Shown here one piece after another: positions 1-56,062 of a stretch of DNA of 64,000 bases (its first letter is position 1; each line of letters begins with the position of its first letter). The DNA lies in assembly GCA_032433765.1 (NCBI GenBank), contig JAVIAB010000160.1, forward strand, positions 39,491,917 through 39,555,916, read 5' to 3'. The notes beneath the pieces were generated by a model that did no database searches, was not told the DNA's origin, and worked only from the letters and a program-made list of their open reading frames with translations. This stretch comes from Megaustenia siamemsis. Lineage: Eukaryota; Mollusca; Gastropoda; Stylommatophora; Ariophantidae. Made by a program: the position numbers and the translations under genes.

Positions 1-400
1 CACACCACCCCTCCCGGGATCCGTGAAGTAGTAACAGTTGTTCCGCGAAGACTTTTATTTTACAGCAAAATGGAAAGAGACAAGGAATTAATGAAAGCAC
101 AAAATAACATGAATCGAAAAAAATATAAGATAGTTTGAATTGAAGTTGAATCCTGGAGGTCCGCGACTACAAAACGTATTTAAAGGGTTTCCACAGTAAA
201 GAAGGTTTGAGAACCGATGAAATAGAGTATTCAGAGGAGCTATTATAGTACGCAAGCCTGTTACAAGATACTATTATAAAGGGCGTGAGCCTGCCCTGTT
301 ACAAACAGTGCAATAGACTTGTAACAATTGTTGCCGTGGCCTTCAGCCATGGGCGGCAAACACAACGAAAACATTTGTGTGTGTGTATATATATGTGAGT
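1..400. other. Unassigned AT-rich DNA
   Basis: No open frame or recognisable element is seen. The stretch ends in a short TG/TA-rich run at about 376-398, just before a SINE. Confidence 0.4.
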
Positions 401-660
401 GGGAGCCGCGATAGCTCAGTTGTTAGTGAACTGGACTACAAAGGACAAGAGGTAGGGATCGATCCCAACCGACGGCTTCCGGTTCACCCAGCCTTTAATG
501 GGTACCGGATTTTTTTCTGCGAAAAGTAAAGCGGCATGGGCGTAATGCCGACCACATTACCCCATAAATCAAATGCCGAAGGTCTGTAAAATTTATGGTC
601 ACTAACACCATATTCCCTATACGCCACTTGGCGTGACAGGGGTACTTTACTTTTTTTTTA
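401..660 (+). repeat. tRNA-derived SINE, family S1, copy 1
   Basis: The head resembles a tRNA gene: an A-box-like tagctcagttgttag at about 412 and a B-box-like segment near 457-467 (atcgatccc). These are the internal RNA polymerase III promoter elements expected of a tRNA-derived SINE. The body runs through a shared core (gtaaagcggc, then the accacattacccc and ctatacgccacttggcgtgac blocks) and ends in ctttac followed by a T run. The same unit of about 255 bp recurs at 5486, 7107, 35595 and 40249 and in truncated form elsewhere, so it is an interspersed family and not a tRNA gene. Confidence 0.85.
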
Positions 661-770
661 AAATATATGTAAGTGAGTGTGTGTTTGTGTGTGTATGTGA
701 ATATTTCAGTGTGCACTTGTGTGTGTTTGTGTGAGAGTGTATGCGTGTATGTTTGTGTGTGTGTCGCGCT
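661..770. repeat. GT-rich microsatellite
   Basis: An imperfect (GT)n/(TGTG)n tract follows the SINE T-run. The open frame on the opposite strand, rich in His and Thr, is a by-product of this low-complexity DNA. Confidence 0.8.
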
Positions 771-889
771 CACCCGTTAATGACGTTCGGGTTACAAATG
801 CCACAATGTAACAAATGATGCTCTGCCAGATATTGCGGCTTCAACAATTAACCCTGTTATGACAAGTAACATACCGCTTGGAAAAAAAA

Positions 890-1130
890 AAAAAACTACC
901 CCACGGTCGACCCAGCCGTTGGCAGAAATGGGTACCAGTGTATCACCCTGGGAAGGTGAGGAATGTCGCCTCGCATCGTGAGTTTCCATGCTTGAGGCGA
1001 CACTATCCAGAAATCTCCGAACATTTCTGGATAGGCGGCCGAGCACATATGGGTGGAAACTCGCGTGCTAAGACGGCGGTTCATGTCTCGTACTTTACCT
1101 TTACCATACCGCTTACTGGAGAACTCCAAA
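890..1130. repeat. Imperfect foldback sequence
   Basis: A perfect 12-bp stem (ctatccagaaat at 1003-1014, its complement at 1023-1034) encloses an 8-base loop. The flanks continue as a diverged inverted repeat: gtgagtttccatgc on the left mirrors the sequence around ggtggaaactcgcg on the right. Overlapping open frames on the two strands have similar composition because of the symmetry. It may be a small MITE-like or hairpin element; no target duplication was found. Confidence 0.55.
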
Positions 1131-1269
1131 GTAAGGAGTGATAATCATTATTTAACGGGACAATTCTGTGAAGACGATTACTCGACATTGTCAGACGTAG
1201 AGACAAATCTTATCATGATCATCTATCGTCAATTATATCTGTCTCCATTATTTGCCTTTTAACTAAGAA

Positions 1270-1570
1270 ACTGGCTAAATGAGTAGGTAAATAACTAGTT
1301 AAATTAAATGACTGCTGGACCGAGTAACTAATCAACCATGTAGTTCCCTCATCATCAACATGTGTCATACCGGCTGGCGTAGGCGATCATGTCCTTACAC
1401 CATCTTCTATCTACAGTGCATCGTTACCTAGCTGACTAAATAAAAATAAAAAATTACTGCACCGACTAAGTAACTACTCAACCATGTAGTTAACTAGCTA
1501 ACTAAATACAAAAACTACAGGGACCGACTAATTATCAGCCGTGGAGTTAACTAGCTAACTAAATAAATAA
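1270..1570. repeat. Diverged tandem repeat of about 60 bp, interrupted by a LINE tail
   Basis: Variants of a motif containing accgactaa, accatgtagtt and aactagctaactaaat recur at about 1300, 1450 and 1520. Between them, at about 1350-1427, lies the antisense 3' end of a LINE family (family B here: cataccggctggcgtaggcgatcat), which splits the array. Confidence 0.5.
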
Positions 1571-1689
1571 CTACATTAGTTAATAGCAACAAACCAAATC
1601 CTCTATGTAAGACACTCGTTTATCGCGTCACTTTAAATGATTTCTTTCACATGAGAAATTATAGAACTATCAGTAACACATAACGTCAT

Positions 1690-2961
1690 TTGTGCCCTAC
1701 GATCATTGGCAGAGAGAGGCTTGGAGTTACAGAAAGATCTATATCTATGATTTATTGACTTCACCGAAGCTTTTCATAAGGTCAATCATGAATAGATGAG
1801 CAAAATACTAGAAAATATCAGTGTAGAAACATATATTGAAAACAAGAAACAGCCATCAGACTTCAAAACAAACATGGAGACTATCAACAAATAAGACAAG
1901 GTGTGCAACAGGGACGTGTATTGTCATCAGATCTATTTTCTTTGCACAGCGAAAATATTAAAAAAAAAACAATTGCCAAAAAAAGCTTACCATTAAAGTG
2001 TGTGCGGATAGAGGGGAACAACATAAACAACAGCTGGTATAATCTATTAGATGAATTTGTGATAGAATGTAAACACAAAAGCACCACACTCATCAAAAGG
2101 GCAGAAATTATAACATAAAATAAAACAAAGACACTTGATTATAGAGTAAAACTACGTGGTAAAATCATGAAACAAGCGCATAGATTCGAATACCTGCGAT
2201 CAATAATAACATCAGATGGCTGATGTGCTGTAGAAATTAGAAGCAGGGTAGGACAGGCAAAGACAGAATTCCATCGAATGAAAGACGTCATTTGTAACAA
2301 ATCATTGTTAATTAATGTTAGAAAGCATGACCTAAAGTGCTACATCGAACTACTCCACTATATGGAAGTGAGACAGAGATAAGCAAGACAAAATAAGAAC
2401 ATTAGAGGCAGTTGAGATGTGGTTTATAAGAAGAAATCTACAAATGCCATGGATAGCAAAGATGACAAATGAAGGTTTAAAAAAAGATGAAGCAACCAGA
2501 AATACCATCAGAATCATAGGAAATGATAATCTACATTTGTTGAGCATGTCATGAGAAAAGAATGCGTTGAGAATACTATAACAAAGGGCAGAATTAATGG
2601 AAATAAGAGCAGAGGAAAACCAAAAGAGAAATATTGAACAGCTTATCCCAATGTCAAGCATAAAAGATCATCATCATCATCATCATCGAGTGCCGTCTCC
2701 GCAACGAAGGTTGGCTACCATGGAGCGTCATTCTGATCTGTCTCTTGCTTTGATGGTGCTGGTTGTCATAGGCTGATTTGTTCATCTTTTGATGTTACTC
2801 GTCCATGTTAGTCTTGGTCTGCCTCTGCCTCTTTTACCTTGTAATTTCCCCCAAAAAGATATCCATAAAAGATAACCGACTGACATTATGACATGCATGA
2901 AGGAGAGCTGATCGCCTACACAAACCGGCATGACACCTGATGATGATGATGATGATAATAA
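1690..2961 (+). pseudogene. Degenerate non-LTR reverse transcriptase copy (family B-like)
   Basis: Translated in shifting frames, the segment resembles a LINE reverse transcriptase. Around 1735-1790 is an IDFTEAF-like motif corresponding to the IDYTKVFD segment of the better copy at 15.0 kb. At 2130-2660 come the thumb and C-terminal pieces (RFEYLRS, then a FIRRN-like segment, then the GRI-like basic segment). The coding end at about 2655 is followed by a separate insertion at 2669-2863, after which the 3' end resumes (gatcgcctac...cggcatgacacc) and closes in (GATGAT)n near 2940-2961. Stops and frameshifts are frequent, so it is not functional. The RTE-type assignment is tentative. Confidence 0.65.
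2669..2863 (-). mobile_element. Truncated LINE 3' end (family C) with target duplication
   Basis: The antisense 3' end of family C (tail catcatcatc, then gagtgccgtctccgc) sits inside the reverse transcriptase relic above. The flanking 10-bp direct repeat cataaaagat (2659-2668 and 2864-2873) is a target-site duplication, so this insertion is younger than its host copy. Related copies lie at 13875-14145, 29985-30079 and 42556-43135. Confidence 0.75.
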
Positions 2962-4117
2962 ATAGCCGTTAATATTTCACCATTCCATTACTCAAACAAA
3001 ACCAGCGAAATAAAAAAAAATGAGCTAACACAAATTTATCGTAATTAACATTGAGTTATTGAGTTATTTGCGGGTCATCATCATTGACTCATTTAACATA
3101 ATTAACATTTTAACGTAATTAGCCCTCAATCAGACTACTTATATCATTTCTACAAAAAGATCTATTACTAGTAATCCAAGAACGTTAATTCACTATTATT
3201 GTTGTTAAAGCGAAACAATGTTGACAAGTCGCTGTTTGGATCAACCTTGACACGTCAAACATGTAGGATATATTTGTTCTTGTTTGTATTGTTAGTCAAA
3301 GAAACCAACCAATCAATCAAGCCAGCTAGTTAGCCAGTCAACTAACATACTAATCTACTATCTAAGTTATAAACTGTCACATTAAGTGTTATAATTATTC
3401 AAAATCGCTGAGAATTAGTTTATGATGAAGCAAATAGTAATCCGGTTGATGCGGCCGGCCTAGATATCTGCGTGGTCGAATTTGATTCAGGACCAGCGAC
3501 ATTTCTGCTGTAGTGTTTTTTTTTTTTTTCAAATAATTCTTTCTGGCTTGGATTTTCGCTTGTGGAGACAGCCTTAGTCCTGTCGAATTCTCCTGATCAC
3601 AAAATCAACATTGTTTTGGCGACTGCGCACTGAGATATTGCTGCAGGCGACTAGCCGTGGAGTGTTGTGTATCGGTACCAGGTCCTGGATTGCCCTGGGA
3701 CAAGATGATGTCTTTTTCGAGTGCAAATTTGACACCAGCTGGACTGCGGTCTCATCGAGTATTCTTAATTTGTTAGGGCAGCGATTATTGTTGTGGCATA
3801 TTCACTGGTCATGAGGTACACACAAATTTGTCTCTAGCGCGTGGGAGATTGTACTGCCCGTGACGGCGACCTGGAAATGGTCACTATGAGCTGTGCGCCA
3901 TTTGTGCAGAGTGCAGCTCTACAATAGAACAGTGTCAAAGTAATGCGCTCCATTTTCACGGAACGCAATGCGTTCAATTGAACAGCATGAGGAATCGAGA
4001 TGGAACGTGGTAGTTGGAATGGGAACTGAGCAGATAAGGGAATACCTCGCCTGCATTGAAGCAATTCCGTTCTAAAGTCTAAGATAGCAATCGCAATCGA
4101 CTTTTTGGAAACGCATC
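2962..4117. other. Unassigned DNA with one LINE tail
   Basis: At 3050-3092 is a short antisense match to the 3' end of the RNase H LINE (gttattgagttatttgcgggtcat), ending in the same gagttatt tail. The rest is AT-rich. A 12-base T run at about 3519-3530 follows a tRNA-like head that I could not classify. No credible gene was seen. Confidence 0.4.
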
Positions 4118-14989: not shown

Positions 14990-16335
14990 TCGGGTGCGAT
15001 TGAATGCGATGATTATCGCACAATAAGCCTTATGAGTCATATGACTAATATATTATTAAGAATCATAATGCGAAGAGTGCGAAACAAAATCAGTCCAGAA
15101 ATTAGCGAAGAACAGTGTGATTTTGTTAGAGATAAAGGAACAAGCAATGTCATTTATATCATAAGATCTTTAGTAGAAAGAGCCATAGAGGTGAAAACAG
15201 ATCTATACCTATGTTTCATAGATTACACCAAGGTATTTGACAAATTAAAGCACCAAGAAATAATCAACATTTTAGAAAGCATAAACGTAGACAGCAAAGA
15301 TCTAAGAATAATAAAGAACATGTACTGGCAACAAACAGCGGCCATAAGAACTGGAAACCAATTGGGAATGTTTCAACAAATAAAACAGGGTGTTAGACAA
15401 GGTTGTGTGCTGTCACCAGATTTGTTTAATATTTATAGTGAGATTACTTTATCCATAACTAGATCTAGATATCTAGTATCTAGGATACTAGATCCATAAG
15501 GGGCATGCCTGTAATAACAATTGGAGGTCATAATATAAATAATCTAAGGTATGCTGATGATACAGTATTAATCGGTAAGAGTGAAAATGAGTTACAAGAA
15601 ATGTTGGACATTATAGTGAAAGAAAACAAAAATAAAGCACAGCCTTAATAGCAAAAAGACAGAGATAATGGTAACAACAAAGAAAAAGACATCACCTCAG
15701 TGCAAAATAAAGACAAGTGGAACAATATTAAAACAGGTAAATGAATTTAAATATTTGGGAACTTTGTTAACTTCAGACGCAAGATGTACAAAAGAGGTGA
15801 GATGCAGAATGGCTCAGGCAAAAGCAGCTTTCCAAAAAATGAGGAAGATACTATGCAATCCATTTTTGACAATAAAAACAAGAAAAAGAGTTCTTAAATA
15901 TTACGTAGAGCCAGTCTTAACATATAGATGCGAATCATGGACAATAGGACAACATACAAGAAAATCACTGGAGTCTGTAGAAACGTGGTTTTACAGAAGA
16001 ATGTTGAGAATACCCTAGACAGCCAAGAAGAGTAATGAAAACGTTTTGAAAGAGGCCAAAGCAAAAGAGAGCTAATTTTCAATATTAGGAAAAAACAATC
16101 ATCATTTTTTTGGCCATGTAATGAGAAGGGAACAGCTGAAATATATTGTAACAACTGGGAATATTGAGGGACAAAGAGATAGGGGAATCAAAGAGAAAGA
16201 AATAACATACAGCTTAAGAGAATGGCTTGGCAGAAGGTCAGCAACAGAAATGATAAAGAAGTGTCGAGATCGAAAGTTGTGGAGAGACATGATCACCTAC
16301 GCCAGTAGGCCCGATACTTGATGATGATGATGATC
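14990..16335 (+). pseudogene. LINE family A, partial reverse transcriptase
   Basis: This is the best preserved reverse transcriptase of the family. At 15032-15440 one frame carries motif-like segments IDYTKVFD (fingers/palm, catalytic Asp region) and [14 protein letters not shown]. After a break, tatgctgatgataca at about 15551 encodes the YADD catalytic box. The thumb and C-terminus follow at 15668-16018 (FKYLGTLLTSD, then YRCESWTIG) and the terminal basic segment at 16121-16320. It closes in gatgatgatgatga. Frameshifts near 15480 and 15650 and a stop at 16016 make it inactive. The endonuclease and 5' half are absent. The layout fits RTE-type LINEs, but the clade is inferred. Confidence 0.8.
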
Positions 16336-16713: not shown

Positions 16714-16719
16714 GTAGTT
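16714..16719. repeat. Target-site duplication, left
   Basis: GTAGTT, identical to 27123-27128 immediately outside the other end of the palindrome. Six-base duplications are typical of Polintons/Mavericks. Confidence 0.85.
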
Positions 16720-17208
16720 AGTAGTATAGCAGGAAGGATCTGGTTAGTATTTAGGCGCTAAATTAACAAAGATATATAGTAGGTGCGCGGCGCACCTAAT
16801 GTACCGTAGGTGCAGGGGGAGTTAACCGTGACATTTCGTGTCGGGATGTTGACCTCTAGGCCCGGTGACCCGGAAGTGACCTGTTTATGTCTGGTGTGTC
16901 CTGGCTTTGGAGTTCTTGAGCGATAGTGATAGGTTAGTAGATTATACAACATCATTGACAAACAATCAATATAAAATAGAAGACAGAGATATATTTTATT
17001 CTTTTATTATCTCAATAGGTGTATAACATACATTGAAATTATATAACATTACAAAAATATTCAGTACATTGAGTAAATATATAGTACAAGGATAATATTT
17101 ATTTATAGCTATGTAGTTGGGTGTCCGCTTAGCTCTATGTCACAAATGAATCATAAGGGGTGAAACTGTTAGAGGTTGCTGGGTAGTCTAAGTTAGTAGT
17201 GTAAATAG

Positions 17209-17580
17209 TTAAATATCTAGTGGCGTAGTCGAGACATTATCATCAGCGACCTTTCTTTTTATATAGAAATAAGAAAGAGCATTTCTTGTTTGACTGTAGG
17301 AAAATATGGAATTATTTAAGACTTTGAAACCTACATTTTTTCCACCCTTGGCCTTTTGCGTAGCGAGAACCTCTAAAAACATATCTTTATCTAATTTGTT
17401 GTGTTGCTTGCTTAACCCCTTACAACTGATTTTATCGTAATCCCCACTACAATGGTACGTCTTACTACATAAGCTAACAAGAGCTGTCCCTTCGTACTCT
17501 AGTTTAAAAAGCCCGGGCGTTCGTTTGGTGTATGCTTTAACACCCTTACAGTTTATACAGTCTGTCTTGCTAGTATGTTC
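17209..17580 (-). pseudogene. Polinton DNA polymerase B, C-terminal remnant (left arm)
   Basis: The reverse strand is open for 123 codons ending in TAA at 17211-17209. Recognisable words are CINCKGVKAYTK, KRTPGLFKLEYEG, ALVSLCSKTYHC, DKISCKGLSKQHN and, at the end, KRKVADDNVSTTPLDI. This is the characteristic C-terminus of Polinton/Maverick protein-primed B-family polymerases. Only this tail remains; the exonuclease and palm motifs are missing because the minisatellite begins immediately upstream. It reads outward to the element terminus. It has exactly the same length as its partner at 26262-26633, so no indel has entered it. Confidence 0.8.
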
Positions 17581-17589
17581 ATCGCAGCG

Positions 17590-18255
17590 ATGGGTGTATG
17601 GAGGTCGCCTAGTGTGTAATAAGGGCTGTATAGGGGTCGTCTAGTGTGCCGTGATGGGTCAATGGAGGTCGGCTAGTATGTCGTGATGGGTGTACGGAGG
17701 TCGTCTAGTGTGTCATATTGGGTGTATAGAGGGCGTTTAGTGTGTCATGATGGTTGTATAGGGGTCGTCTAGTGTGTCATGATGGTTGTATAGGGGTCGT
17801 CTAGTGTGCCGTGATGGGTGTACGGAGGTCGTCTAGTGTGTCATATTGGGTGTATAGAGGGCGTTTAGTGTGTCATGATGGTTGTATAGGGGTCGTCTAG
17901 TGTGTCATGATGGTTGTATAGGGGTCGTCTAGTGTGCCGTGATGGGTCAATGGAGGTCGGCTAGTATGTCGTGATGGGTGTACGGAGGTCGTCTAGTGTG
18001 TCATATAGGGTGTATAGAGGGCGTTTAGTGTGTCATGATGGTTGTATAGGGGTCGTCTAGTGTGTCATATTGGGTGTATAGAGGGCGTCTAGTGTGTCAT
18101 GATGGGTGTATGTAGGTCGTTTAGTGTGTCATATTGGGTGTATAGAGGCGTTTAGTGTGTCGTGAGGGGTGTATGGAGGTCGTCTACTGTGTCGTGAGGG
18201 GTGTATGGAGGTCATCTAGTGTGGTATGGGGTGTATGGCGGTTGTCTGGTATATC
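17590..18255. repeat. 32-bp minisatellite, left arm
   Basis: About 20 copies of a 32-bp unit built on gtcgtctagtgtgtcatgat and ggttgtatag, with variant units that recur in the same order in groups. It begins right where the polymerase frame loses similarity, so it may have grown out of, or replaced, polymerase coding sequence. Confidence 0.9.
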
Positions 18256-18579
18256 ATACTTTAATCAACCAATAAGAAAAATGAAGGAACATTACATTCA
18301 ACATTACTTATCTTAACTACTTTACATCAATACAGTTGAATAACGTGTTATCGGTAAGTCTTACCATACTTTAAGAGAAAACATTCAAACTTACAGCGTA
18401 AAATATAGTCTCAATCATCTACACCGAATATAACCTGTTATCGATAAGCCTTAACATACGTTAAGAGAAAACAAGCCAACTTACTGTGCAAAAATCCGCT
18501 AGTGTGAACAGTAACTTTCCTTGAATCAACCAAACTTATAACGCCGTCTAGTTTAAATATAACCTGGTAAGAAATGAAT

Positions 18580-18720
18580 AAATTAGCCAATCAGCGAGTG
18601 ACTATGCCAACATCGCTTGATATCGGGATTAACCAATCAGAAAAGAGTATTAACATAGGAGGCGGGGCGAAGAAATGGCTGACAGGTGGATTAACCAATC
18701 AGAAAAGCGCGTTAGCCCAA
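18580..18720 (+). promoter_or_regulatory. CCAAT/GC-box promoter-like block, left arm
   Basis: Three CCAAT boxes in the same orientation (18587, 18633, 18695; contexts gccaatcag and aaccaatcag) and a GC box (aggcggggcg at about 18659-18669) cluster within 115 bp. They read toward the centre of the element. NF-Y and Sp1 are the usual binders of such motifs; use here is inferred. Confidence 0.5.
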
Positions 18721-18978
18721 GCGTAGGTAGTGGCTGTCGGGTCAGCAGTGGGGGAAAAATGCGGGGTGGTGGGTTACTTGAACTCGTTTTGACCCTGAGG
18801 CAATTCCAGAAGAGTTCTATGACCTCATTTTGACCGCTGAAGGCTTTAATACCAGTGTTGCCCACTTCAACGAACGACAGACATCATTAAAGGTGATTAA
18901 TTCAGCTCTTAGACTTTGGAGTTCCATATCTTTATCACTTCAACGAATGACAGACAACAGTAAAGATGATCATTTCAG
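18675..18978 (+). pseudogene. Possible first exon, frameshifted copy (left arm)
   Basis: ATG at 18675 opens a frame (MADRWINQSEK...) that breaks near 18795. There the left arm has three Cs (gaccctgagg) where the right arm has four. Downstream words such as EEFYDL and TSVAHFNERQ are therefore out of frame here. The block ends at a perfect splice donor (cag|gtaagaaa, donor at 18979). I do not recognise the product. Confidence 0.45.
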
Positions 18979-19024
18979 GTAAGAAAACTTAGTTTCAAAC
19001 CCTAAAATTTTGGTTCATACTCAC

Positions 19025-20185
19025 AAAGTTGAACTCAAAACCCTAAAAATTTAGTCCCAAAGTGATACTAGTTCACCTCAAAAGGCCTAAATGTTATATG
19101 CAAAGTCCAAAAGTTTGTCAAAAAGACAACCTAAACTCAGAATAGTTAGATGCAAAGCTCAAAAATGTATATGCAAAGTCCAAAATTTACTCCAAAAGAC
19201 AACTAATGTAACACTTAACCCCAAAAGTTCGTCTCATAACCAAAAAGTTGAACTCAAAACCCTAAAAAATTAGTCCCAAAGTCGTAATTGTTCGACACGA
19301 AAGTCGTAAATGTTATATGCAAAGTCCAAAAGTTTGTCAAAAAGACAACCTAAACTCAGAATAGTTAGACACAAAGCCCAACAATTTATAGGCAAAGTCA
19401 CAAAAGTTACTCCAAAAGACAACTAATATAACACTTAATCCCAAAATTTCGTCTCATAACCAAAAAGTTGAACTCAAAACCCTAAAAAACTTAGTCCCAA
19501 AGTGGTACTAGTTCACCACAAAAGGTGTAAATGTTATATGCAAATCCAAAATTTTGTCATAAAGACAACCCAAACTCAAAATTGTTAGACACAAAGCCCA
19601 ACGATTTATATGCAAAGTCCAAAAAAGTTACTCCAAAAGACAAATAATGTAACACCAATTCACAAAAATTTCGTCTCATAACCAGTTGAACTCAAAAGCC
19701 TAAAAATTTAGTCCCAAAGTGATACTAGTTCGACACAAAAGACCAAATAGTTACATTCAAAGTCCAAAAGTTTGTCAAAAAGACAACCCGAACTCAAAAT
19801 AGTTAGACACAAAGCCCAACAATTTATATGCAAAGTCCAAAAAGTTACTCCAAAAGACAACTAATGTAACACTTAACCCCAAAATTTCGTCGCATAACCA
19901 GTTGAACTCAAAACCCTACAAAATTTAGACCGAAAGTCAAAATAGTTAGACACGAAAGACCAAATAGTTATATTCAAAGTCCAAAAGTTTGTCAAAAAGA
20001 CAACCCAAACTCAAAAGTTTGTCAAAAAGACAACCCAAACTCAAAATAGTTAGACATGAAAGGTCAAAAAAAGGTATACTCAAAGTCCAAAATGTTACTT
20101 CAAAAGACAACTAATATAACAACAAGCCCCAAAACTTCGTCTCATAACCAAAAAGTTGAACTCAAAACCCTAAAAAAGTGTCCAC
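19025..20185. repeat. 220-bp tandem array, left arm
   Basis: About 5.2 diverged copies with starts near 19025, 19244, 19464, 19684, 19900 and 20154, each opening with agttgaactcaaaacccta. Internal sub-repeats such as caaagtccaaaagtt suggest growth from a shorter A-rich unit. Not coding. Confidence 0.9.
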
Positions 20186-20524
20186 TTATCAACCAAAGTC
20201 TTTAATACAGCTGAGAAAACCCTAATAAATAATTACAATTTACTAAAAAGGTTGCCCTTGATGATAGTTGCGACTGTGTCTAAATCATTATTGAAAATAT
20301 TCATAGAACTCTAGTAAAAACCAAACACACTAAAACACCACATTGAAAGAATGAACTTAAAGTTCACGCCCTGTCACAACTCTGCTAAGAAAAGTACTGC
20401 AAAGCATGAAAGTTATGTCCCCTGCTATAACTCTACTAAACGAAAGTATTACCAAACACGTAGGTTACACTCCTACCATAACCCACTAAGAAAAAACAAG
20501 ATTTTGCTTAAAATACCACATTTA

Positions 20525-21690
20525 TGATTGTTACGCCCCTTGTCCCTTTATGAGGGGTACGCCCATGAAACTGTTAGAAATAGTAAATTTAACCTAGTGG
20601 CATACCCCAGATGTTATATTAGACATCCCCATAGCAAAAATTTACTTAAAAGTCACTTTTATGGTGGTTACGCCCCTTGACCCTTTATGAGGGGACGCCC
20701 ATGAACTGTTAGAAATAGTAAATTCACACTCTAGGGTTACTCCAAACTTTACATTAGACACCCCCATAGCAAAAATTTGCTTAAAAGTCACTTTTATGGT
20801 TGTTACTCCCCTTGAGCCTTTATGAAGGGACGCCCATGAAACTCTTAAAAATAGTAAATTTAACCTCTAGGCTTACCCCAAACTTTATATTAAGCATCCC
20901 CATATCAAGAATTTACATAAAAACAACTTTTGAAATTACTACCCCTGTACCCATTTTTGGTGGTTACGCCCATGAAACTGTTAAAAATAGTAAATTTAAC
21001 ATATAGACATACCCCAAACTTTATATTTAGCATCCCCGTATCAAGAAGTTACATAAAAACAACTTTTGAAATTACTACCCCTGTACCCATTTTTGGCGGT
21101 TACGCCCACGAAACTGTTAAAAAATAGTCAATTTAACATCTAGACATACCCCAAACTTATATTAAGCATCCCCGTATCAAGAATTTACATAAAAACACCT
21201 TTTGAAATTACTACCCCTGTACCCATTTTTGGCGGTTACGCCCACAAAACTGTTAAAAAATAGTCAATTTAACATCTAGACATACCCCAAACTTTATATT
21301 AAGCATCCCCGTATCAAGAATTTACATAAAAACACCTTTTGAAATTACTACCCCTGTACCCATTTTTGGCGGTTACGCCCATGAAACTGTTAAAAATAGT
21401 CAATTTAACATCTAGACATACCCCAAACTTTATATTAAGTAGCCCCGTATCAAGAATTTACATAAAAACAACTTTTGAAATTACTACCCCTGTACCCATT
21501 TTGGCGGTTACGCCCATGAAACTGTTAAAAATAGTCAATTTAACATCTAGACATACCCAAAACTTTATATTAAGTAGCCCCGTATCAAGAATTTACATAA
21601 AAACAACTTTTGAAATTACTACCCCTGTACCCATTTTTGGCGGTTACGCCATGAAATCGATAAAAAAAATTGAAGTTTAACCTATTGGCA
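20525..21690. repeat. 136-bp tandem array, left arm (9 copies)
   Basis: Units are marked by tacgcccatgaaactgtta at about 20558, 20696, 20831, 20965, 21102, 21239, 21375, 21511 and 21646, with outer and inner units more diverged. The period is 136 bp, one more than a multiple of three, so the short open frames (MKLLPLYPFL-type) simply restart in each unit and are not genes. Confidence 0.95.
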
Positions 21691-21767
21691 TACATCAAAC
21701 ATAATATTTGTCACGCCCATGTATCAAATTTACCTGAAAAATCAATCAAAATTAGTAGTATACAATG

Positions 21768-21941
21768 GCACTTAGGATGGATAGACTATAAGGAAAAAAA
21801 CGGTTGACTCTCATATAAGGAAAAACGGTAGACTCTCATATAAGGAAAAACGGCACCAAAAAAATGTGCCTCGATCTGCGGGTAGACTATTTATATAAGG
21901 ATTTACGTGCCTTCAAAGGCACATTAACGCATCTTAATTGA
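21768..21941. other. Central spacer of the palindrome
   Basis: Non-symmetrical 174-bp loop. It has three tandem copies of a 25-bp unit (ctcatataaggaaaaacgg at about 21785-21855) and two small hairpins: ggcac...gtgcc at 21851-21869, and gtgcct-tcaa-aggcac at 21907-21922. The second sits almost exactly at the midpoint of the element. Confidence 0.85.
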
Positions 21942-22009
21942 CATTGTATACTACTAATTTTTGATTGATTTTTCAGGTAAATTTGATACATGGGCGTGTC
22001 AAATATTAT

Positions 22010-23330
22010 GTTTGATGTATGCCAATAGGTTAAACTTCAATTTTTTTAATCGATTTCATGGGCGTAACCGCCAAAAATGGGTACAGGAGTAGTAATTTCA
22101 AAAGTTGTTTTTATGTAAATTCTTGATACGGGGCTACTTAATATAAAGTTTGGGTATGTCTAGATGTTAAATTGCCTATTTTTAACAGTTTCATGGGCGT
22201 AACCGCCAAAAATGGGTACAGGGGTAGTAATTTCAAAAGTTGTTTTTATGTAAATTCTTGATACGGGGCTACTTAATATAAAGTTTTGGGTATGTCTAGA
22301 TGTTAAATTGACTATTTTTAACAGTTTCATGGGCGTAACCGCCAAAAATGGGTACAGGGGTAGTAATTTCAAAAGTTGTTTTTATGTAAATTCTTGATAC
22401 GGGGCTACTTAATATAAAGTTTGGGGTATGTCTAGATGTTAAATTGACTATTTTTAACAGTTTCATGGGCGTAACCGCCAAAAATGGGTACAGGGGTAGT
22501 AATTTCAAAAGGTGTTTTTATGTAAATTCTTGATACGGGGATGCTTAATATAAAGTTTGGGGTATGTCTAGATGTTAAATTGACTATTTTTAACAGTTTT
22601 GTGGGCGTAACCGCCAAAAATGGGTACAGGGGTAGTAATTTCAAAAGGTGTTTTTATGTAAATTCTTGATACGGGGATGCTTAATATAAAGTTTGGGGTA
22701 TGTCTAGATGTTAAATTGACTATTTTTTAACAGTTTCGTGGGCGTAACCGCCAAAAATGGGTACAGGGGTAGTAATTTCAAAAGTTGTTTTTATGTAACT
22801 TCTTGATACGGGGATGCTAAATATAAAGTTTGGGGTATGTCTATATGTTAAATTTACTATTTTTAACAGTTTCATGGGCGTAACCACCAAAAATGGGTAC
22901 AGGGGTAGTAATTTCAAAAGTTGTTTTTATGTAAATTCTTGATATGGGGATGCTTAATATAAAGTTTGGGGTAAGCCTAGAGGTTAAATTTACTATTTTT
23001 AAGAGTTTCATGGGCGTCCCTTCATAAAGGCTCAAGGGGAGTAACAACCATAAAAGTGACTTTTAAGCAAATTTTTGCTATGGGGGTGTCTAATGTAAAG
23101 TTTGGAGTAACCCTAGAGTGTGAATTTACTATTTCTAACAGTTTCATGGGCGTCCCTCATAAAGGGTCAAGGGGCGTAACCACCATAAAAGTGACTTTAA
23201 GTAAATTTTTGCTATGGGGATGTCTAATATAACATCTGGGGTATGCCACTAGGTTAAATTTACTATTTCTAACAGTTTCATGGGCGTACCCCTCATAAAG
23301 GGACAAGGGGCGTAACAATCATAAATGTGG
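22010..23330. repeat. 136-bp tandem array, right arm (10 copies)
   Basis: Complement of the left array, with unit marks (tttcatgggcgtaacc) near 22055, 22187, 22323, 22460, 22595, 22730, 22868, 23006, 23142 and 23275. Three near-identical inner units lie between the diverged innermost unit and the gtgggcg variants, where the left arm has two. Confidence 0.95.
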
Positions 23331-23659
23331 TATTTTAAGCAAAATCTTGTTTTTTCTTAGTGGGTTATGGTAGGAGTGTAACCTACGTGTTTGGTAATAC
23401 TTTCGTTAGTAGAGTTATAGCAGGGGACATAACTTTCATGCTTTGCAGTACTTTTCTTAGCAGAGTTGTGACAGGGGCGTGAACTTTAAGTTCATTCTTT
23501 CAATGTGGTGTTTTAGTGTGTTTGGTTTTTACTAGAGTTCTATGAATATTTTCAATAATGATTTAGACACAGTCGCAACTATCATCAAGGGCAACCTTTT
23601 AGTAAATTGTAATTATTTATTAGGGTTTTCTCAGCTGTATTAAAGACTTTGGTTGATAA

Positions 23660-24822
23660 GTGGACACTTTTTTAGGGTTTTGAGTTCAACTTTTTGGTTA
23701 TGAGACGAAGTTTGGGGCTTGTTGTTATATTAGTTGTCTTTTGAAGTAACATTTTGGACTTTGAGTATACCTTTTTTTGACCTTTCATGTCTAACTATTT
23801 TGAGTTTGGGTTGTCTTTTTGACAAACTTTTGAGTTTGGGTTGTCTTTTTGACAAACTTTTGGACTTTGAATATAACTATTTGGTCTTTCGTGTCTAACT
23901 ATTTTGACTTTCGGTCTAAATTTTGTAGGGTTTTGAGTTCAACTGGTTATGCGACGAAATTTTGGGTTAAGTGTTACATTAGTTGTCTTTTGGAGTAACT
24001 TTTTTGGACTTTGCATATAAATTGTTGGGCTTTGTGTCTAACTATTTTGAGTTCGGGTTGTCTTTTTGACAAACTTTTGGACTTTGAATGTAACTATTTG
24101 GTCTTTTGTGTCGAACTAGTATCACTTTGGGACTAAATTTTTAGGCTTTGAGTTCAACTGGTTATGAGACGAAATTTTGTGAATTGGTGTTACATTATTT
24201 GTCTTTGGAGTAACTTTTTTGGACTTTGCATATAAATCGTTGGGCTTTGTGTCTAACAATTTTGAGTTTGGGTTGTCTTTATGACAAAATTTTGGATTTG
24301 CATATAACATTTACACCTTTGTGGTGAACTAGTACCACTTTGGACTAAGTTTTTTAGGGTTTTGAGTTCAACTTTTTGGTTATGAGACGAAATTTTGGGA
24401 TTAAGTGTTATATTAGTTGTCTTTTGGAGTAACTTTTTGGACTTTGCCTATAAATTGTTGGGCTTTGTGTCTAACTATTCTGAGTTTAGGTTGTCTTTTT
24501 GACAAACTTTTGGACTTTGCATATAACATTTACGACTTTCGTGTCGAACAATTACGACTTTGGGACTAATTTTTTAGGGTTTTGAGTTCAACTTTTGGTT
24601 ATGAGACGAACTTTTGGGGTTAAGTGTTACATTAGTTGTCTTTTGGAGTAACTTTTTGGACTTTGCATATACATTTTTGAGCTTTGCATCTAACTATTCT
24701 GAGTTTAGGTTGTCTTTTTGACAAACTTTTGGACTTTGCATATAACATTTAGGCCTTTTGAGGTGAACTAGTATCACTTTGGGACTAAATTTTTAGGGTT
24801 TTGAGTTCAACTTTGTGAGTAT
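23660..24822. repeat. 220-bp tandem array, right arm
   Basis: Complement of 19025-20185 with the same number of units. Single-base length differences occur in homopolymers such as ttttt and ggggtt. Confidence 0.9.
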
Positions 24823-24856
24823 GAACCAAAATTTTAGGGTTTGAAACTAAGTTTTC

Positions 24857-25165
24857 TTACCTGAAATGATCAACTTTACTGTTGTCTGTCATTCGTTGAA
24901 GTGATAAAGATATGGAACTCCAAAGTCTAAGAGCTGAATTAATCACCTTTAATGATGTCTGTCGTTCGTTGAAGTGGGCAACACTGGTATTAAAGCCTTC
25001 AGCGGTCAAAATGAGGTCATAGAACTCTTCTGGAATTGCCTCAGGGGTCAAAACGAGTTCAAGTAACCCACCACCCCGCATTTTTCCCCCACTGCTGACC
25101 CGACAGCCACTACCTACGCTTGGGCTAACGCGCTTTTCTGATTGGTTAATCCACCTGTCAGCCAT
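24857..25165 (-). CDS. Possible first exon / 102-codon ORF of unknown function (right arm)
   Basis: Intact version of the frame broken in the left arm. It starts MADRWINQSEK, has a Gly/Ser-rich stretch (GSGCRVSSGGKMRGGG) and then an acidic-to-amphipathic part (PEEFYDLILTAEGFNTS, SLKVINSALRLWSSIS). At its end the sequence reads cag|gtaaga, a consensus splice donor, within the last codons. It may therefore be a 5' exon whose partner exons were lost. CCAAT and GC boxes lie just upstream. No known domain is recognised. It could be a captured host exon or a chance open frame. Confidence 0.35.
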   Translation of the reverse strand: MADRWINQSEKRVSPSVGSGCRVSSGGKMRGGGLLELVLTPEAIPEEFYDLILTAEGFNTSVAHFNERQTSLKVINSALRLWSSISLSLQRMTDNSKVDHFR

Positions 25166-25262
25166 TTCTTCGCCCCGCCTCCTATGTTAATACTCTTTTC
25201 TGATTGGTTAATCCCGATATCAAGCGATGTTGGCATAGTCACTCGCTGATTGGCTAATTTAT
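25120..25262 (-). promoter_or_regulatory. CCAAT/GC-box promoter-like block, right arm
   Basis: Mirror of 18580-18720. Three ctgattgg boxes (complement of ccaatcag) and cgccccgcct precede the ORF starting at 25165, reading toward the centre. Confidence 0.5.
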
Positions 25263-25589
25263 TCATTTCTTACCAGGTTATATTTAAACTAGACGGCGTT
25301 ATAAGTTTGGTTGATTCAAGGAAAGTTACTGTTCACACTAGCGGATTTTTGCACAGTAAGTTGGCTTGTTTTCTCTTAACGTATGTTAAGGCTTATCGAT
25401 AACAGGTTATATTCGGTGTAGATGATTGAGACTATATTTTACGCTGTAAGTTTGAATGTTTTCTCTTAAAGTATGGTAAGACTTACCGATAACACGTTAT
25501 TCAACTGTATTGATGTAAAGTAGTTAAGATAAGTAATGTTGAATGTAATGTTCCTTCATTTTTCTTATTGGTTGATTAAAGTATGATAT

Positions 25590-26250
25590 ACCAGACAACC
25601 GCCATACACCCCACATACCACACTAGATGACCTCCATACACCCCTCACGACACAGTAGACGACCTCCATACACCCCTCACGACACACTAAACGCCCTCTA
25701 TACACCCAATATGACACACTAAACGACCTACATACACCATCATGACACACTAGACGCCCTCTATACACCCAATATGACACACTAGACGACCCCTATACAA
25801 CCATCATGACACACTAAACGCCCTCTATACACCCAATATGACACACTAGACGACCTCCGTACACCCATCACGACATACTAGCCGACCTCCATTGACCCAT
25901 CACGGCACACTAGACGACCCCTATACAACCATCATGACACACTAGACGACCCCTATACAACCATCATGACACACTAAACGCCCTCTATACACCCAATATG
26001 ACACACTAGACGACCTCCGTACACCCATCACGGCACACTAGACGACCCCTATACAACCATCATGACACACGAGACGACCCCTATACAACCATCATGACAC
26101 ACTAAACGCCCTCTATACACCCAATATGACACACTAGACGACCTCCGTACACCCATCACGACATACTAGCCGACCTCCATTGACCCATCACGGCACACTA
26201 GACGACCCCTATACAGCCCTTATTACACACTAGGCGACCTCCATACACCC
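25590..26250. repeat. 32-bp minisatellite, right arm
   Basis: Complement of 17590-18255 (unit with atgacacactagacgacc). Unit order is largely conserved with a few substitutions and small indels. Confidence 0.9.
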
Positions 26251-26261
26251 ATCGCTGCGAT

Positions 26262-26633
26262 GAACATACTAGCAAGACAGACTGTATAAACTGTAAGGGT
26301 GTTAAAGCATACACCAAACGAACGCCCGGGCTTTTTAAACTAGAGTACGAAGGGACAGCTCTTGTTAGCTTATGTAGTAAGACGTACCATTGTAGTGGGG
26401 ATTACGATAAAATCAGTTGTAAGGGGTTAAGCAAGCAACACAACAAATTAGATAAAGATATGTTTTTAGAGGTTCTCGCTACGCAAAAGGCCAAGGGTGG
26501 AAAAAATGTAGGTTTCAAAGTCTTAAATAATTCCATATTTTCCTACAGTCAAACAAGAAATGCTCTTTCTTATTTCTATATAAAAAGAAAGGTCGCTGAT
26601 GATAATGTCTCGACTACGCCACTAGATATTTAA
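26262..26633 (+). pseudogene. Polinton DNA polymerase B, C-terminal remnant (right arm)
   Basis: Open for 123 codons from GAA at 26262 to TAA at 26631-26633, with the same words as the left copy (CINCKGVKAYTK, TPGLFKLEYEG, SLCSKTYHC, VSTTPLDI). The frame stays open further left through the edge of the minisatellite but loses similarity there. It reads outward, so the stop codon lies about 490 bp from the element end, the normal position for a polymerase gene at one end of a Polinton. No catalytic residues remain. Confidence 0.8.
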
Positions 26634-27122
26634 CTATTTACACTACTAACTTAGACTACCCAGCAACCTCTAACAGTTTCACCCCTTATGATTCATTTGT
26701 GACATAGAGCTAAGCGGACACCCAACTACATAGCTATAAATAAATGTTATCCTTGTACTATATATTTACTCAATGTACTGAATATTTTTGTAATGTTATA
26801 TAATTTCAATGTATGTTATACACCTATTGAGATAATAAAAGAATAAAATATATCTCTGTCTTCTATTTTATATTGATTGTTTGTCAATGATGTTGTATAA
26901 TCTACTAACCTATCACTATCGCTCAAGAACTCCAAAGCCAGGACACACCAGACATAAACAGGTCACTTCCGGGTCACCGGGCCTAGAGGTCAACATCCCG
27001 ACACGAAATGTCACGGTTAACTCCCCCTGCACCTACGGTACATTAGGTGCGCCGCGCACCTACTATATATCTTTGTTAATTTAGCGCCTAAATACTAACC
27101 AGATCCTTCCTGCTATACTACT

Positions 27123-27128
27123 GTAGTT
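27123..27128. repeat. Target-site duplication, right
   Basis: GTAGTT, the partner of 16714-16719. Confidence 0.85.
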
Positions 27129-27359
27129 TTCCTTCTCGAAGAGAGATCAGTTTGCGCACCAACCATGTTTCAGTCTAGTCTAGTTCGATTTTGTAGGACC
27201 TGGTCCTCTCTGATCCCTTCTGGTCTGGCATAATCTAGTGAAATAAAGAAAAAAAAGGAGAGTACTCCTTTGTTTGGGACATCATGCTTGAGTGTTGCTT
27301 TCTTGATGAACTTACCATGTTCTTCAACTATGGGCGTGGCCAAGACGCCATCCAGCAAC

Positions 27360-27840
27360 TGATCAGAGTTCCGCCAGCGATCTACAGCTGACTGAATGCG
27401 TCAGGATCGACTTACAACTGAGCTGAGTTCGGCCAGCGATCTACAGCTGACTGAATGCGTCAGGATCGACTTACAACTGAGCTGAGTTCGGCCAGCGATC
27501 TACAGCTGACTGAATGCGTCAGAATCGACTTACAACTGATCTGAGTTCGGCCAGCGATCTACAGCTGACTCCGTGCGTCAGGATCGACTTACAACTGAGC
27601 TGAGTTCGGCCAGCGATCTACAGCTGACTGAATGCGTCAGGATCGACTTACAACTGATCTGAGTTCGGCCAGCGATCTACAGCTGACTCCGTGCGTCAGG
27701 ATCGACTTACAACTGAGCTGAGTTCGGCCAGCGATCTACAGCTGACTGAATGCGTCAGAATCGACTTACAACTGATCTGAGTTTGGCCAGCGATCTACAG
27801 CTGACTGAATGCGTCAGGATCGACACACAAATGAGCAGAT
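27360..27840. repeat. 59-bp tandem array, about 8 copies
   Basis: Unit contains gagttcggccagcgatctac, agctgactgaatgcgtcagg and atcgacttacaactga. Two variant types (tgaatgcg and tccgtgcg) alternate, showing multi-unit duplication. It lies 230 bp right of the palindrome, outside it. Confidence 0.95.
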
Positions 27841-30361: not shown

Positions 30362-30915
30362 TCCGACGGAAGATGTACAAAAGAGGTGAGATGCAGAATG
30401 GCTCAGGCAAAAGTAGCTTTCTAAAAAATGAGGAAGATACTATGCAATCCATTTTTGACAATAAAAACAAGAAAAATTAACATTCTTAAATGTTATGTAG
30501 AGCCAGTCCTAACATATGGATGTGAATCAGGGAAAATAGGACACCAGACAAGAAATCACTGGAGTCTTTAGAAATGTGGTTTTACAGAAGAATGTTGAGA
30601 ATACCATGGGCAGCTAAGAAGAGTAATGAAGATGCTCTGAAAGAGGCCAAAGCAAAAAGAGAGTTAATTTCCAATATTAGGTAGAAACAGTCATTATTTT
30701 TTGGCCACGTAATGAGAAGAGAAGAGCTGGAATATATTGTAACAACTGGGAAAATTGAGGGACAAAGAGATAGAGGGAAGCAAAGAGAACAGATACCAGA
30801 CAGCTTAAGAGAATGGCTTGGCAGAAGATCAACAATGGAAATGATAAATAACTGTCGAGATCAAAAGTGTGGAAAGACATGGTCACCTACTCCAGCAGGC
30901 CCGGTACTTGATAAT
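30362..30915 (+). pseudogene. LINE family A, 3' part
   Basis: Starts within the thumb region (tgtacaaaagaggtgagatg), continues through a CESGKIG-like segment and RREELEYIVTTGKIEGQRDR, and ends near gcccggtacttgat. It is frameshifted in several places and was 5' truncated at insertion. Confidence 0.8.
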
Positions 30916-30919
30916 AATG

Positions 30920-31045
30920 AAAGCGGCATGGGTGTAATACTGACCACATTACCCCAAAAATCATGTGCTGATGGTCTGTAAATATTATTATCAGTAACAC
31001 CTTATTCTGTATATGTCACTTGGTGTGATGGAGCTCTTTACTTTA
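30920..31045 (+). repeat. SINE family S1, 3' half
   Basis: Starts at aagcggcatgggtgtaatac and ends in ggagctctttacttta. The tRNA head is absent. It directly follows the LINE A copy. Confidence 0.75.
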
Positions 31046-53310: not shown

Positions 53311-53592
53311 ATTGAACCAGTCCTTTTTTAAAAGAAGCATTTTATGGTTCAGCTCCAGCCTGATACTCTACAGACAGCCCTGTAGGAAATAAAAAATATA
53401 TAGATATCTGGTTTGAAAAGTTACAGAATGTAATATCAAGGAAGTTTGAAAAAAACATCTCACTTGTCTATTGGATTACATGTCACTGGATATTTTTTTT
53501 GGAAGGACCCACTATCAATTGTAAGAGAATGAAGATTGATAACAATGATCATGTTACATGATTGTAAGGTCTTGCTAAGACCATTCTGCGTG

Positions 53593-55800
53593 GAACAGTA
53601 TCTGGTAAAAGAAAACAAAGTAGATGTATAAAAAGGTGAGAACAGTATCTGGTAAAAGAAAACAAAGTAGATGTATAAAAAGGTGAGAACAGTATCTGGT
53701 AAAAGAAAACAAAGTAGATGTATAAAAGGTGAGAACAGTATCTGGTAAAAGAAAACAAAGTAGATGTATAAAAAGGTGAGAACAGTATCTGGTAAAAGAA
53801 AACAAAGTAGATGTATAAAAAGGTGAGAAAAGTATCTGGTAAAAGAAAACAAAGTAGATGTATAAAAAGGTGAGAACAGTATCTGGTAAAAGAAAACAAA
53901 GTAGATGTATAAAAAGGTGAGAACAGTATCTGGTAAAAGAAAACAAAGTAGATGTATAAAAAGGTGAGAACAGTATCTGGTAAAAGAAAACAAAGTAGAT
54001 GTATAAAAAGGTGAGAACAGTATCTGGTAAAAGAAAACAAAGTAGATGTATAAAAAGGTGAGAACAGTATCTGGTAAAAGAAAACAAAGTAGATGTATAA
54101 AAAGGTGAGAACAGTATCTGGTAAAAGAAAACAAAGTAGATGTATAAAAAGGTGAGAACAGTATCTGGTAAAAGAAAACAAAGTAGATGTATAAAAAGGT
54201 GAGAACAGTATCTGGTAAAAGAAAACAAAGTAGATGTATAAAAAGGTGAGAACAGTATCTGGTAAAAGAAAACAAAGTAGATGTATAAAAAGGTGAGAAC
54301 AGTATCTGGTAAAAGAAAACAAAGTAGATGTATAAAAAGGTGAGAACAGTATCTGGTAAAAGAAAACAAAGTAGATGTATAAAAAGTTGAGAACAGTATC
54401 TGGTAAAAGAAAACAAAGTAGATGTATAAAAAGGTGAGAACAGTATCTGGTAAAAGAAAACAAAGTAGATGTATAAAAAGGTGAGAACAGTATCTGGTAA
54501 AAGAAAACAAAGTAGATGTATAAAAAGGTGAGAACAGTATCTGGTAAAAGAAAACAAAGTAGATGTATAAAAAGGTGAGAACAGTATCTGGTAAAAGAAA
54601 ACAAAGTAGATGTATAAAAAGGTGAGAACAGTATCTGGTAAAAGAAAACAAAGTAGATGTATAAAAAGGTGAGAACAGTATCTGGTAAAAGAAAACAAAG
54701 TAGATGTATAAAAAGGTGAGAACAGTATCTGGTAAAAGAAAACAAAGTAGATGTATAAAAAGGTGAGAACAGTATCTGGTAAAAGAAAACAAAGTAGATG
54801 TATAAAAAGGTGAGAACAGTATCTGGTAAAAGAAAACAAAGTAGATGTATAAAAAGGTGAGAACAGTATCTGGTAAAAGAAAACAAAGTAGATGTATAAA
54901 AAGGTGAGAACAGTATCTGGTAAAAGAAAACAAAGTAGATGTATAAAAAGGTGAGAACAGTATCTGGTAAAAGAAAACAAAGTAGATGTATAAAAAGGTG
55001 AGAACAGTATCTGGTAAAAGAAAACAAAGTAGATGTATAAAAAGGTGAGAACAGTATCTGGTAAAAGAAAACAAAGTAGATGTATAAAAAGGTGAGAACA
55101 GTATCTGGTAAAAGAAAACAAAGTAGATGTATAAAAAGGTGAGAACAGTATCTGGTAAAAGAAAACAAAGTAGATGTATAAAAAGGTGAGAACAGTATCT
55201 GGTAAAAGAAAACAAAGTAGATGTATAAAAAGGTGAGAACAGTATCTGGTAAAAGAAAACAAAGTAGATGTATAAAAAGGTGAGAACAGTATCTGGTAAA
55301 AGAAAACAAAGTAGATGTATAAAAAGGTGAGAACAGTATCTGGTAAAAGAAAACAAAGTAGATGTATAAAAAGGTGAGAACAGTATCTGGTAAAAGAAAA
55401 CAAAGTAGATGTATAAAAAGGTGAGAACAGTATCTGGTAAAAGAAAACAAAGTAGATGTATAAAAAGGTGAGAACAGTATCTGGTAAAAGAAAACAAAGT
55501 AGATGTATAAAAAGGTGAGAACAGTATCTGGTAAAAGAAAACAAAGTAGATGTATAAAAAGGTGAGAACAGTATCTGGTAAAAGAAAACAAAGTAGATGT
55601 ATAAAAAGGTGAGAACAGTATCTGGTAAAAGAAAACAAAGTAGATGTATAAAAAGGTGAGAACAGTATCTGGTAAAAGAAAACAAAGTAGATGTATAAAA
55701 AGGTGAGAACAGTATCTGGTAAAAGAAAACAAAGTAGATGTATAAAAAGGTGAGAACAGTATCTGGTAAAAGAAAACAAAGTAGATGTATAAAAAGGTGA
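53593..55800. repeat. 47-bp satellite array, about 47 copies
   Basis: Unit: gaacagtatctggtaaaaga, aaacaaagtagatgtataaa, aaggtga. Almost all units are identical; exceptions include a one-base-shorter unit near 53727, gagaaaagtat near 53826 and agttgag near 54384. Because 47 is not a multiple of three and the complement has no stop in any phase, all three minus-strand frames stay open for over 740 codons. The hydrophobic repeat peptide is an artefact. It ends exactly at repeat R (gagaatagcattggagaatg). Confidence 0.98.
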
Positions 55801-56062
55801 GAATAGCATTGGAGAATGATTTGGATTCACTTGCCATATCTCAGACAGTTGGCTGTGTTCACTTTCTGCGCGGTTTCGCCTTATGTCTTTTGGCGTGTGC
55901 TGAGACTGCTACGATGGGGACTACAGTTACCTTTCTTTGTTTGGGAGATGAGTTGGTAATTCGGATGATTCCACTGGCACGGGCGGTTGAGCAATTATGG
56001 ATTTTAATTCGTTTGCTGTGATACCGAGGCCTTCCATAACCAATAACCAATAACCAATCTCA
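55801..56062 (-). repeat. Interspersed repeat R, antisense, longest copy
   Basis: Complement of the R sequence: ttggttattggttatggaag at the right end, then caaacgaattaaaatccata and cccgtgccagtggaatcatc leftward. Confidence 0.75.

Follow-up and report, generated by a model that had tools for sequence, protein, structure and literature searches.

We analysed a window of DNA (the whole stretch of 64,000 nucleotides) from the snail Megaustenia siamemsis, contig JAVIAB010000160.1, and found that it holds a palindromic element of about 10.4 kb with GTAGTT on both sides. With a probability of roughly two in three, we regard this element as non-autonomous and as belonging to a lineage of palindromic elements that derive from Mavericks (Polintons), are copied through a hairpin, and are integrated in trans. 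Its ends recur by the hundred in the host genome, most of the paired copies compared lie between perfect 6-bp duplications at different targets, and some copies carry a B-family DNA polymerase (PolB) gene in each of the two arms.

Palindromes in the window and in the genome

The two arms of the window element (Table 1) are inverted copies of each other, 98.8% identical and separated by a spacer of 174 bp. A local alignment paired 16720-21745 with the inverted 27122-22105 at 98.81% identity; the 5040 aligned positions include 24 mismatches, and gaps were opened 35 times. In a global alignment the pairing was unbroken to 21767 and 21942, and 17 mismatches and 23 indels were counted. Six of these mismatches were clear substitutions and the other 11 lay beside indels or were compensating shifts; 21 of the indels involved a single base (mostly in homopolymers), one involved 2 bases, and one was an additional 136-bp repeat unit in the right arm. 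For an inverted repeat of 5 kb at such identity a test against chance is unnecessary. GTAGTT directly abuts the outer ends, AGTAGTATAGCAGG on the left and CCTGCTATACTACT on the right; the element starts with AGTAGT and finishes with ACTACT, that is, (AGT)2//(ACT)2. From its end to the centre, each arm holds a PolB remnant followed by arrays of 32-bp, 217-bp, and 136-bp units. The original prediction had described a 10.4 kb palindrome with a perfect 6-bp duplication, and the alignments agree with it, the coordinates being exact to the base.

A search of the host assembly (2.59 Gb) for the same termini, which had also been suggested there, revealed the family. The exact 20-bp end was present in 658 copies (320 forward, 338 reverse), and the reversed pattern used as a control gave no match. 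Among 100 places listed, 74 make 37 inward-facing pairs of 606 to 13,044 bp, cited below by their L numbers. We compared 19 of these pairs by halves and two short ones (L049 and L050) whole; the halves of the first nine pairs overlap by 11 bases, which were subtracted for the centre lengths. Perfect 6-bp duplications flanked 17 of the 19 pairs, and the resulting 18 duplications, that of the window included, all differ from each other. They share a symmetric bias, NACGTN: nine of the 18 have a CG centre, position 2 is A in 10, position 3 is C in 12, and positions 4 and 5 are G and T, respectively, each in 12. Such a preference might fit a DDE integrase. The flanks of the short pair L050 agree at five of six bases. 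L049 is a 606-bp miniature with the same ends and inverted repeats of about 220 bp (84%); its duplication is uninformative because it sits in a GATGTG repeat. At C1:37578005 (L010/L011) and C1:45280334 (L017/L018), the flanks are inverted copies of each other over about 175 bp (95-98%), with more blocks besides.

The symmetry seen in the window extends to other copies. In 10 of the 19 pairs, arms of 4-6 kb match up to a centre of 27-336 bp with identities of 97.9-99.9%. The arms of the remaining nine align only partly; these include L039/L040, which has a long interspersed nuclear element (LINE) frame in the middle, L069/L070 with LINE-like frames, and L047/L048, which is short of part of one arm, the rest being more diverged. 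When the first 3 kb of 40 arms, those of the 19 pairs and of the window element, were compared, the arm's own partner was the best match for 34, against a chance of 1 in 39 per arm; in one example the partner matched at 99.9% and the next element at 94.7%. The left arm of L047/L048 is 99.8% identical to L033, and the duplication of this pair is perfect.

The interior of the arms bears on how this symmetry came about. The window arm matches the PolB-bearing arms L055, L057, and L037 in two blocks. The outer block spans positions 1-867 (89-92%); the inner one, close to the centre, lies at 4383-5175 in L055 (89.6%), at 4247-5045 in L057 (89.1%), and, as a weaker match, at 4028-4440 in L037 (75.6%). 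The stretch between the two blocks gave no match in those three copies. This replaced middle is common to both window arms, and a diverged form of it occurs in L031, L033, L041, L043, and L069, the arms of which match their own partner wholly or partly. Given that two independent replacements are unlikely, we infer that one arm was copied onto the other.

The centres were read in ten pairs. In seven of them (L031, L033, L041, L051, L055, L057, and L061) the aligned arms finish in an A-rich stretch with TTAGTAGT or TAGTAGT and some further bases, and in L035 and L037 such an A-rich/AGTAGT stretch lies just beyond the aligned arm end. It is thus found at or slightly beyond the arm ends in nine of ten centres, and was not seen within the printed centre bases of L053. 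The spacers of the window, L031, L041, and L051 have GGTAGACTCTCATATAAGG in common, and a near form is present in those of L033, L055, and L057. Outward of the junction in the window element, the inverted repeat has almost no differences; inward it still holds at 9 of 12 positions and then stops, which could be compatible with fold-back at a short imperfect inverted repeat. The turn of fold-back inverted duplications, as outlined in PMC3907307, combines a single-copy spacer with a short inverted sequence. The inner AGTAGTATA, notable by its position alone, may be the trace of an internal Maverick end.

Polymerase genes in the arms and the genes not recognised

A 143-amino-acid (aa) frame at 26202-26630 of the window is mirrored in the left arm. 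Of 38 candidates in a protein search with this frame, 33 reached E ≤ 1 (the best at 4.3e-44), including one from the sea cucumber Holothuria leucospilota with the UniRef name DNA-directed DNA polymerase and one from the snail Bradybaena similaris. In an alignment of the window piece with 13 of the 33 relatives, several reach upstream to MDTDS or a similar motif. In longer copies from the genome the same piece closes frames that hold KLLGNSAYG and, in some, DTDS, which we take to be motifs B and C of B-family polymerases; the N-terminal part of the longer frames holds C2H2 zinc fingers. The polymerase is predicted to be of the protein-primed kind. In the account of vertebrate Mavericks in PMC8097293, 5'-(AGT)2//(ACT)2-3' is the commonest of the end motifs reported and the target duplications are of 6 bp; the elements described here have ends of this type, and 6-bp duplications flank the window element and 17 of the 19 other pairs. 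The end motif, the duplication, and the PolB C-terminus in both arms support the Maverick/Polinton ancestry put forward in the original prediction, and the PolB C-terminus in each arm also bears out its proposal that the inverted-duplicated shape was built from the polymerase end.

Four of the 19 pairs (L037/38, L045/46, L055/56, and L057/58) have pieces of the PolB body in both arms. KLLGNSAYG is present in all four, and DTDS in frames of at least 250 aa of L037/38 and L055/56. The C-terminal remnant alone was found in both arms of six pairs and in one arm of another. A genome search with the 123-aa PolB piece, in which 150 of 6234 candidates were scored, listed 150 ends that are all 100% identical over the 123 aa. 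When ends less than 25 kb apart were paired, 104 of the 150 formed 52 outward-pointing pairs, and no pair of another orientation was found. The frames are shorter than 200 aa on both sides in 30 of the 52 pairs, and at least one arm has a longer frame in the other 22, two of which are mixed; frame type (under versus over 200 aa) is concordant in 50 of 52. In five outward pairs both frames exceed 1,400 aa. As judged by eye, the frames of at least 90 aa in L037/38, L055/56, and L057/58 are parts of PolB, PolB-overlapping frames, arrays, or flank, and these members therefore resemble two back-to-back PolB genes and nothing else.

The PolB end of the window (26262-26630) differs from those of L031, L033, L041, and L047 by 10-11 synonymous and no non-synonymous changes, and none of these copies nor the window has a long PolB frame; comparison with L037, L043, L051, and L055 gave 1-5 non-synonymous changes. 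The truncated piece would either have been exchanged with PolB-bearing copies or be selected as a peptide.

Integrase was not found among the frames of at least 90 aa judged by eye in L037/38, L055/56, and L057/58, nor in Pfam scans of seven large frames from these pairs and of five window frames. Capsid, packaging ATPase, and protease genes were not recognised in the same three pairs, and no P-superfamily transposase was present among the Pfam-scanned frames, a genome-wide search for it not having been made. Vertebrate Mavericks have inverted repeats that range from tens of bp to some 1.4 kb and enclose a coding centre; in 10 of the 19 pairs here, arms of 4-6 kb reach a centre of 27-336 bp instead. 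Since integrase, capsid genes, and such short repeats are missing from this picture, we describe the elements as a Maverick-derived variant. Elsewhere in the host genome, Peptidase_C5 scored over the Pfam cut-off at 10 places among 150 scored candidates, and at none in 14 control genomes. At one of these places (L071) a 176-aa Peptidase_C5 frame (E 9.7e-9) adjoins a 407-aa frame that had no convincing database match; by resemblance, the latter is possibly the capsid gene of a fuller Maverick. Mavericks carry genes of the adenovirus-protease family (PMC6431247). The Peptidase_C5 genes therefore indicate that fuller Mavericks are probably present in the genome; their ends and integrases were not seen.

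Table 1. Features of the palindromic element, in window coordinates
Feature	Positions	Strand	Basis
Left 6-bp target-site duplication GTAGTT	16714..16719	+	sequence
Palindrome left arm, outer end AGTAGTATAGCAGG, (AGT)2 motif	16720..21767	+	alignment; motif compared with PMC8097293
Putative Maverick-type PolB remnant, last 123 codons, reading to left end	17212..17580	-	frame and relatives
32-bp tandem array, left arm, about 20 units, starting where PolB breaks off	17589..18223	+	
217-bp tandem array, left arm	18998..20016	+	
136-bp tandem array, left arm, 8.1 units, within the arm part matching PolB-bearing arms	20558..21656	+	
Inner AGTAGTATACAATG at left arm/centre junction, resembling the outer end	21754..21767	+	
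Non-palindromic centre, 174 bp; other copies have partly similar centres	21768..21941	.	
Inner AGTAGTATACAATG at right arm/centre junction	21942..21955	-	
Palindrome right arm, inverted copy of left arm (98.8%), one 136-bp unit more	21942..27122	-	alignment
136-bp tandem array, right arm, 9.1 units	22054..23288	-	
217/219-bp tandem array, right arm	23831..24814	-	
32-bp tandem array, right arm	25593..26253	-	
Putative Maverick-type PolB remnant, right arm, reading to right end	26262..26630	+	frame and relatives
Right 6-bp target-site duplication GTAGTT	27123..27128	+	sequence

The right arm also has a 109-aa open frame (24860-25186, minus strand) followed by a GTAAG donor-like sequence, and its left-arm counterpart (about 18653-18979) is frameshifted by a one-base difference; a protein search found no relatives of this frame. 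Outside the element, a 59-bp tandem array (27356-27836) begins about 230 bp to its right, and a large, strongly strand-skewed array of roughly 47-bp period occupies 53590-55812. Direct copies (88.7%) at 15773-16330 and 30362-30920 bracket the element, and the first overlaps a frame that looks reverse-transcriptase-like by eye.

Origin of the palindromes and alternative explanations

We propose that the palindrome arose, probably once, when a Maverick strand folded at an inner AGTAGT inverted repeat and its polymerase end was copied, and that it has since been passed on as a unit. The PolB-bearing members would then contain one protein-primed PolB gene twice, in inverted order and with no other recognised content, each copy being read from a short non-palindromic centre out to the (AGT)2//(ACT)2 ends. 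Protein priming at one end would displace a single strand, and this self-complementary strand could form a hairpin with its arms paired with each other. Mismatches and rearrangements would be transferred from arm to arm in this pairing, and synthesis across the turn would rebuild the duplex palindrome, which a Maverick-type integrase acting in trans would insert with a 6-bp duplication. In the window subfamily, minisatellite DNA would have taken the place of the PolB body in both arms. We suggest more tentatively, and at a little under even chances, a self-complementary Maverick lineage with a hairpin single strand and one type of end, in which the twin-PolB palindrome replicates itself, mends one arm from the other in each cycle, and is a satellite of capsid- and integrase-bearing Mavericks in the same genome.

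Several observations weigh against this scheme. We infer the hairpin replication intermediate, and a helper with the same ends is presumed, integrase not having been found in the copies read. Partners are lacking for 26 of the 100 listed terminus places, and 46 of the 150 scored PolB ends are single. Eight of the 19 pairs with these ends gave no match to the PolB piece. Two pairs, L010/L011 and L017/L018, have reverse-complement flanks instead of direct duplications, and the right arm of L047/L048 is short of about 3.35 kb (positions 69 to 3422 of the L033 arm). Six of the 40 arms match another arm better than their own partner, namely a single arm of L045/46, a single arm of L059/60, and the two arms of L047/48 and of L051/52, the last pair being nearly identical to another element. 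The concordance in 50 of 52 pairs is one of copies and not of independent events, and the subfamilies that turned symmetric are few. One-mismatch matches to the inner AGTAGTATA number six in the window against 4.29 expected, which is no enrichment. The identity of PolB is predicted from motifs, named relatives, and a single sub-threshold Pfam match of one piece to DNA_pol_B_2 (E 0.0037), and the predicted structure was of poor quality and gave no decision.

Alternatively, the arms, as inverted repeats in the chromosome, could have been kept alike by ordinary gene conversion once the element had been inserted, the family itself still being one of palindromic Mavericks. Such conversion between palindrome arms is known for sex-chromosome palindromes (PMC6790999), and the patchy identity of L043/L044 (99.0% over the initial 1311 bp, then 95.8%) is in agreement with it. 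However, arm identity ranges from 99.9 to 93.8% between elements (L047/48 excepted), as if it had been set at insertion and then decayed, and the several distinct symmetric arrangements would require long conversion tracts in each subfamily. We consider this explanation unlikely.

A foldback-type cut-and-paste transposon that had acquired a PolB fragment is a far less probable source. Galileo and Foldback (FB) elements, as characterised in PMC3573991, resemble the present family in their very long inverted arms of tandem repeats, their many non-autonomous forms, and the recruitment of internal sequence into the arms, and long, internally repetitive arms are indeed found here. Yet those elements have a P-superfamily transposase, chimeric Galileo copies have 7-bp boundary sequences, and Galileo repeats reach about 1.26 kb (PMC3573991), whereas the duplications here are of 6 bp, which together with the (AGT)2 ends suit Mavericks, and some copies have long PolB frames in both arms.

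The original prediction had viewed the element as one defective genome of inverted-duplicated form that was inserted in trans in a single event. The PolB end, the symmetry, and the failure to recognise an integrase would agree with that view, but it is contradicted by the hundreds of end copies, the many paired palindromic copies at different targets, the PolB-bearing members, and the several symmetric types without a PolB body, and we give it hardly any weight. An assembly or sequencing artefact from fold-back reads, as the many one-base homopolymer indels between the window arms (suggesting consensus errors) and the reverse-complement flanks in 2 of the 13 pairs first examined might indicate, is just as implausible, because perfect direct duplications flank 17 of 19 pairs as well as the window element, each time at another target, and since the left and right flanks of the window element are dissimilar by eye, it is no simple fold-back read artefact.

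Known systems and significance

Symmetric defective genomes of adenoviruses contain one genome end twice in inverted order and are by-products. In contrast, the palindromic form described here would be inherited and multiplied. The present elements are like Mavericks/Polintons in their (AGT)2//(ACT)2 ends, 6-bp duplications, and predicted protein-primed-type PolB (PMC8097293). Intact vertebrate Mavericks, however, are given there as 12.7-24.6 kb long, with inverted repeats of 46-1447 bp and seven or eight core genes, in contrast to the present elements, where 10 of 19 pairs have arms of 4-6 kb that almost meet at the centre and some copies have a twin PolB. Fold-back inverted duplications share the arrangement at the turn noted above, but those treated in PMC3907307 are rearrangements of chromosomes rather than units that transpose. 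Invertron-type mitochondrial plasmids such as pAL2-1 are linear, have a terminal protein, and replicate by strand displacement, and the long inverted repeats of their integrated copies have been attributed to panhandle-like intermediates; those repeats, though, are mitochondrial flanking DNA and not part of the element (PMC1864894). We did not recognise a palindromic Maverick body plan among the literature matches listed, and it may be new for the class.

Repeat annotation may classify such copies as unclassified inverted repeats. The palindromic arms could be used to test strand-displacement replication in Mavericks. With its gene present in both arms, a palindrome would be its own repair template, and the arms could serve as a clock for each insertion. 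The family suggests a route from a large virus-like element through PolB-only elements to non-autonomous elements filled with minisatellites. If our reading is true, an inverted-duplicated protein-primed replicon, which is usually regarded as a dead-end by-product, can turn into a stable and prolific lineage.

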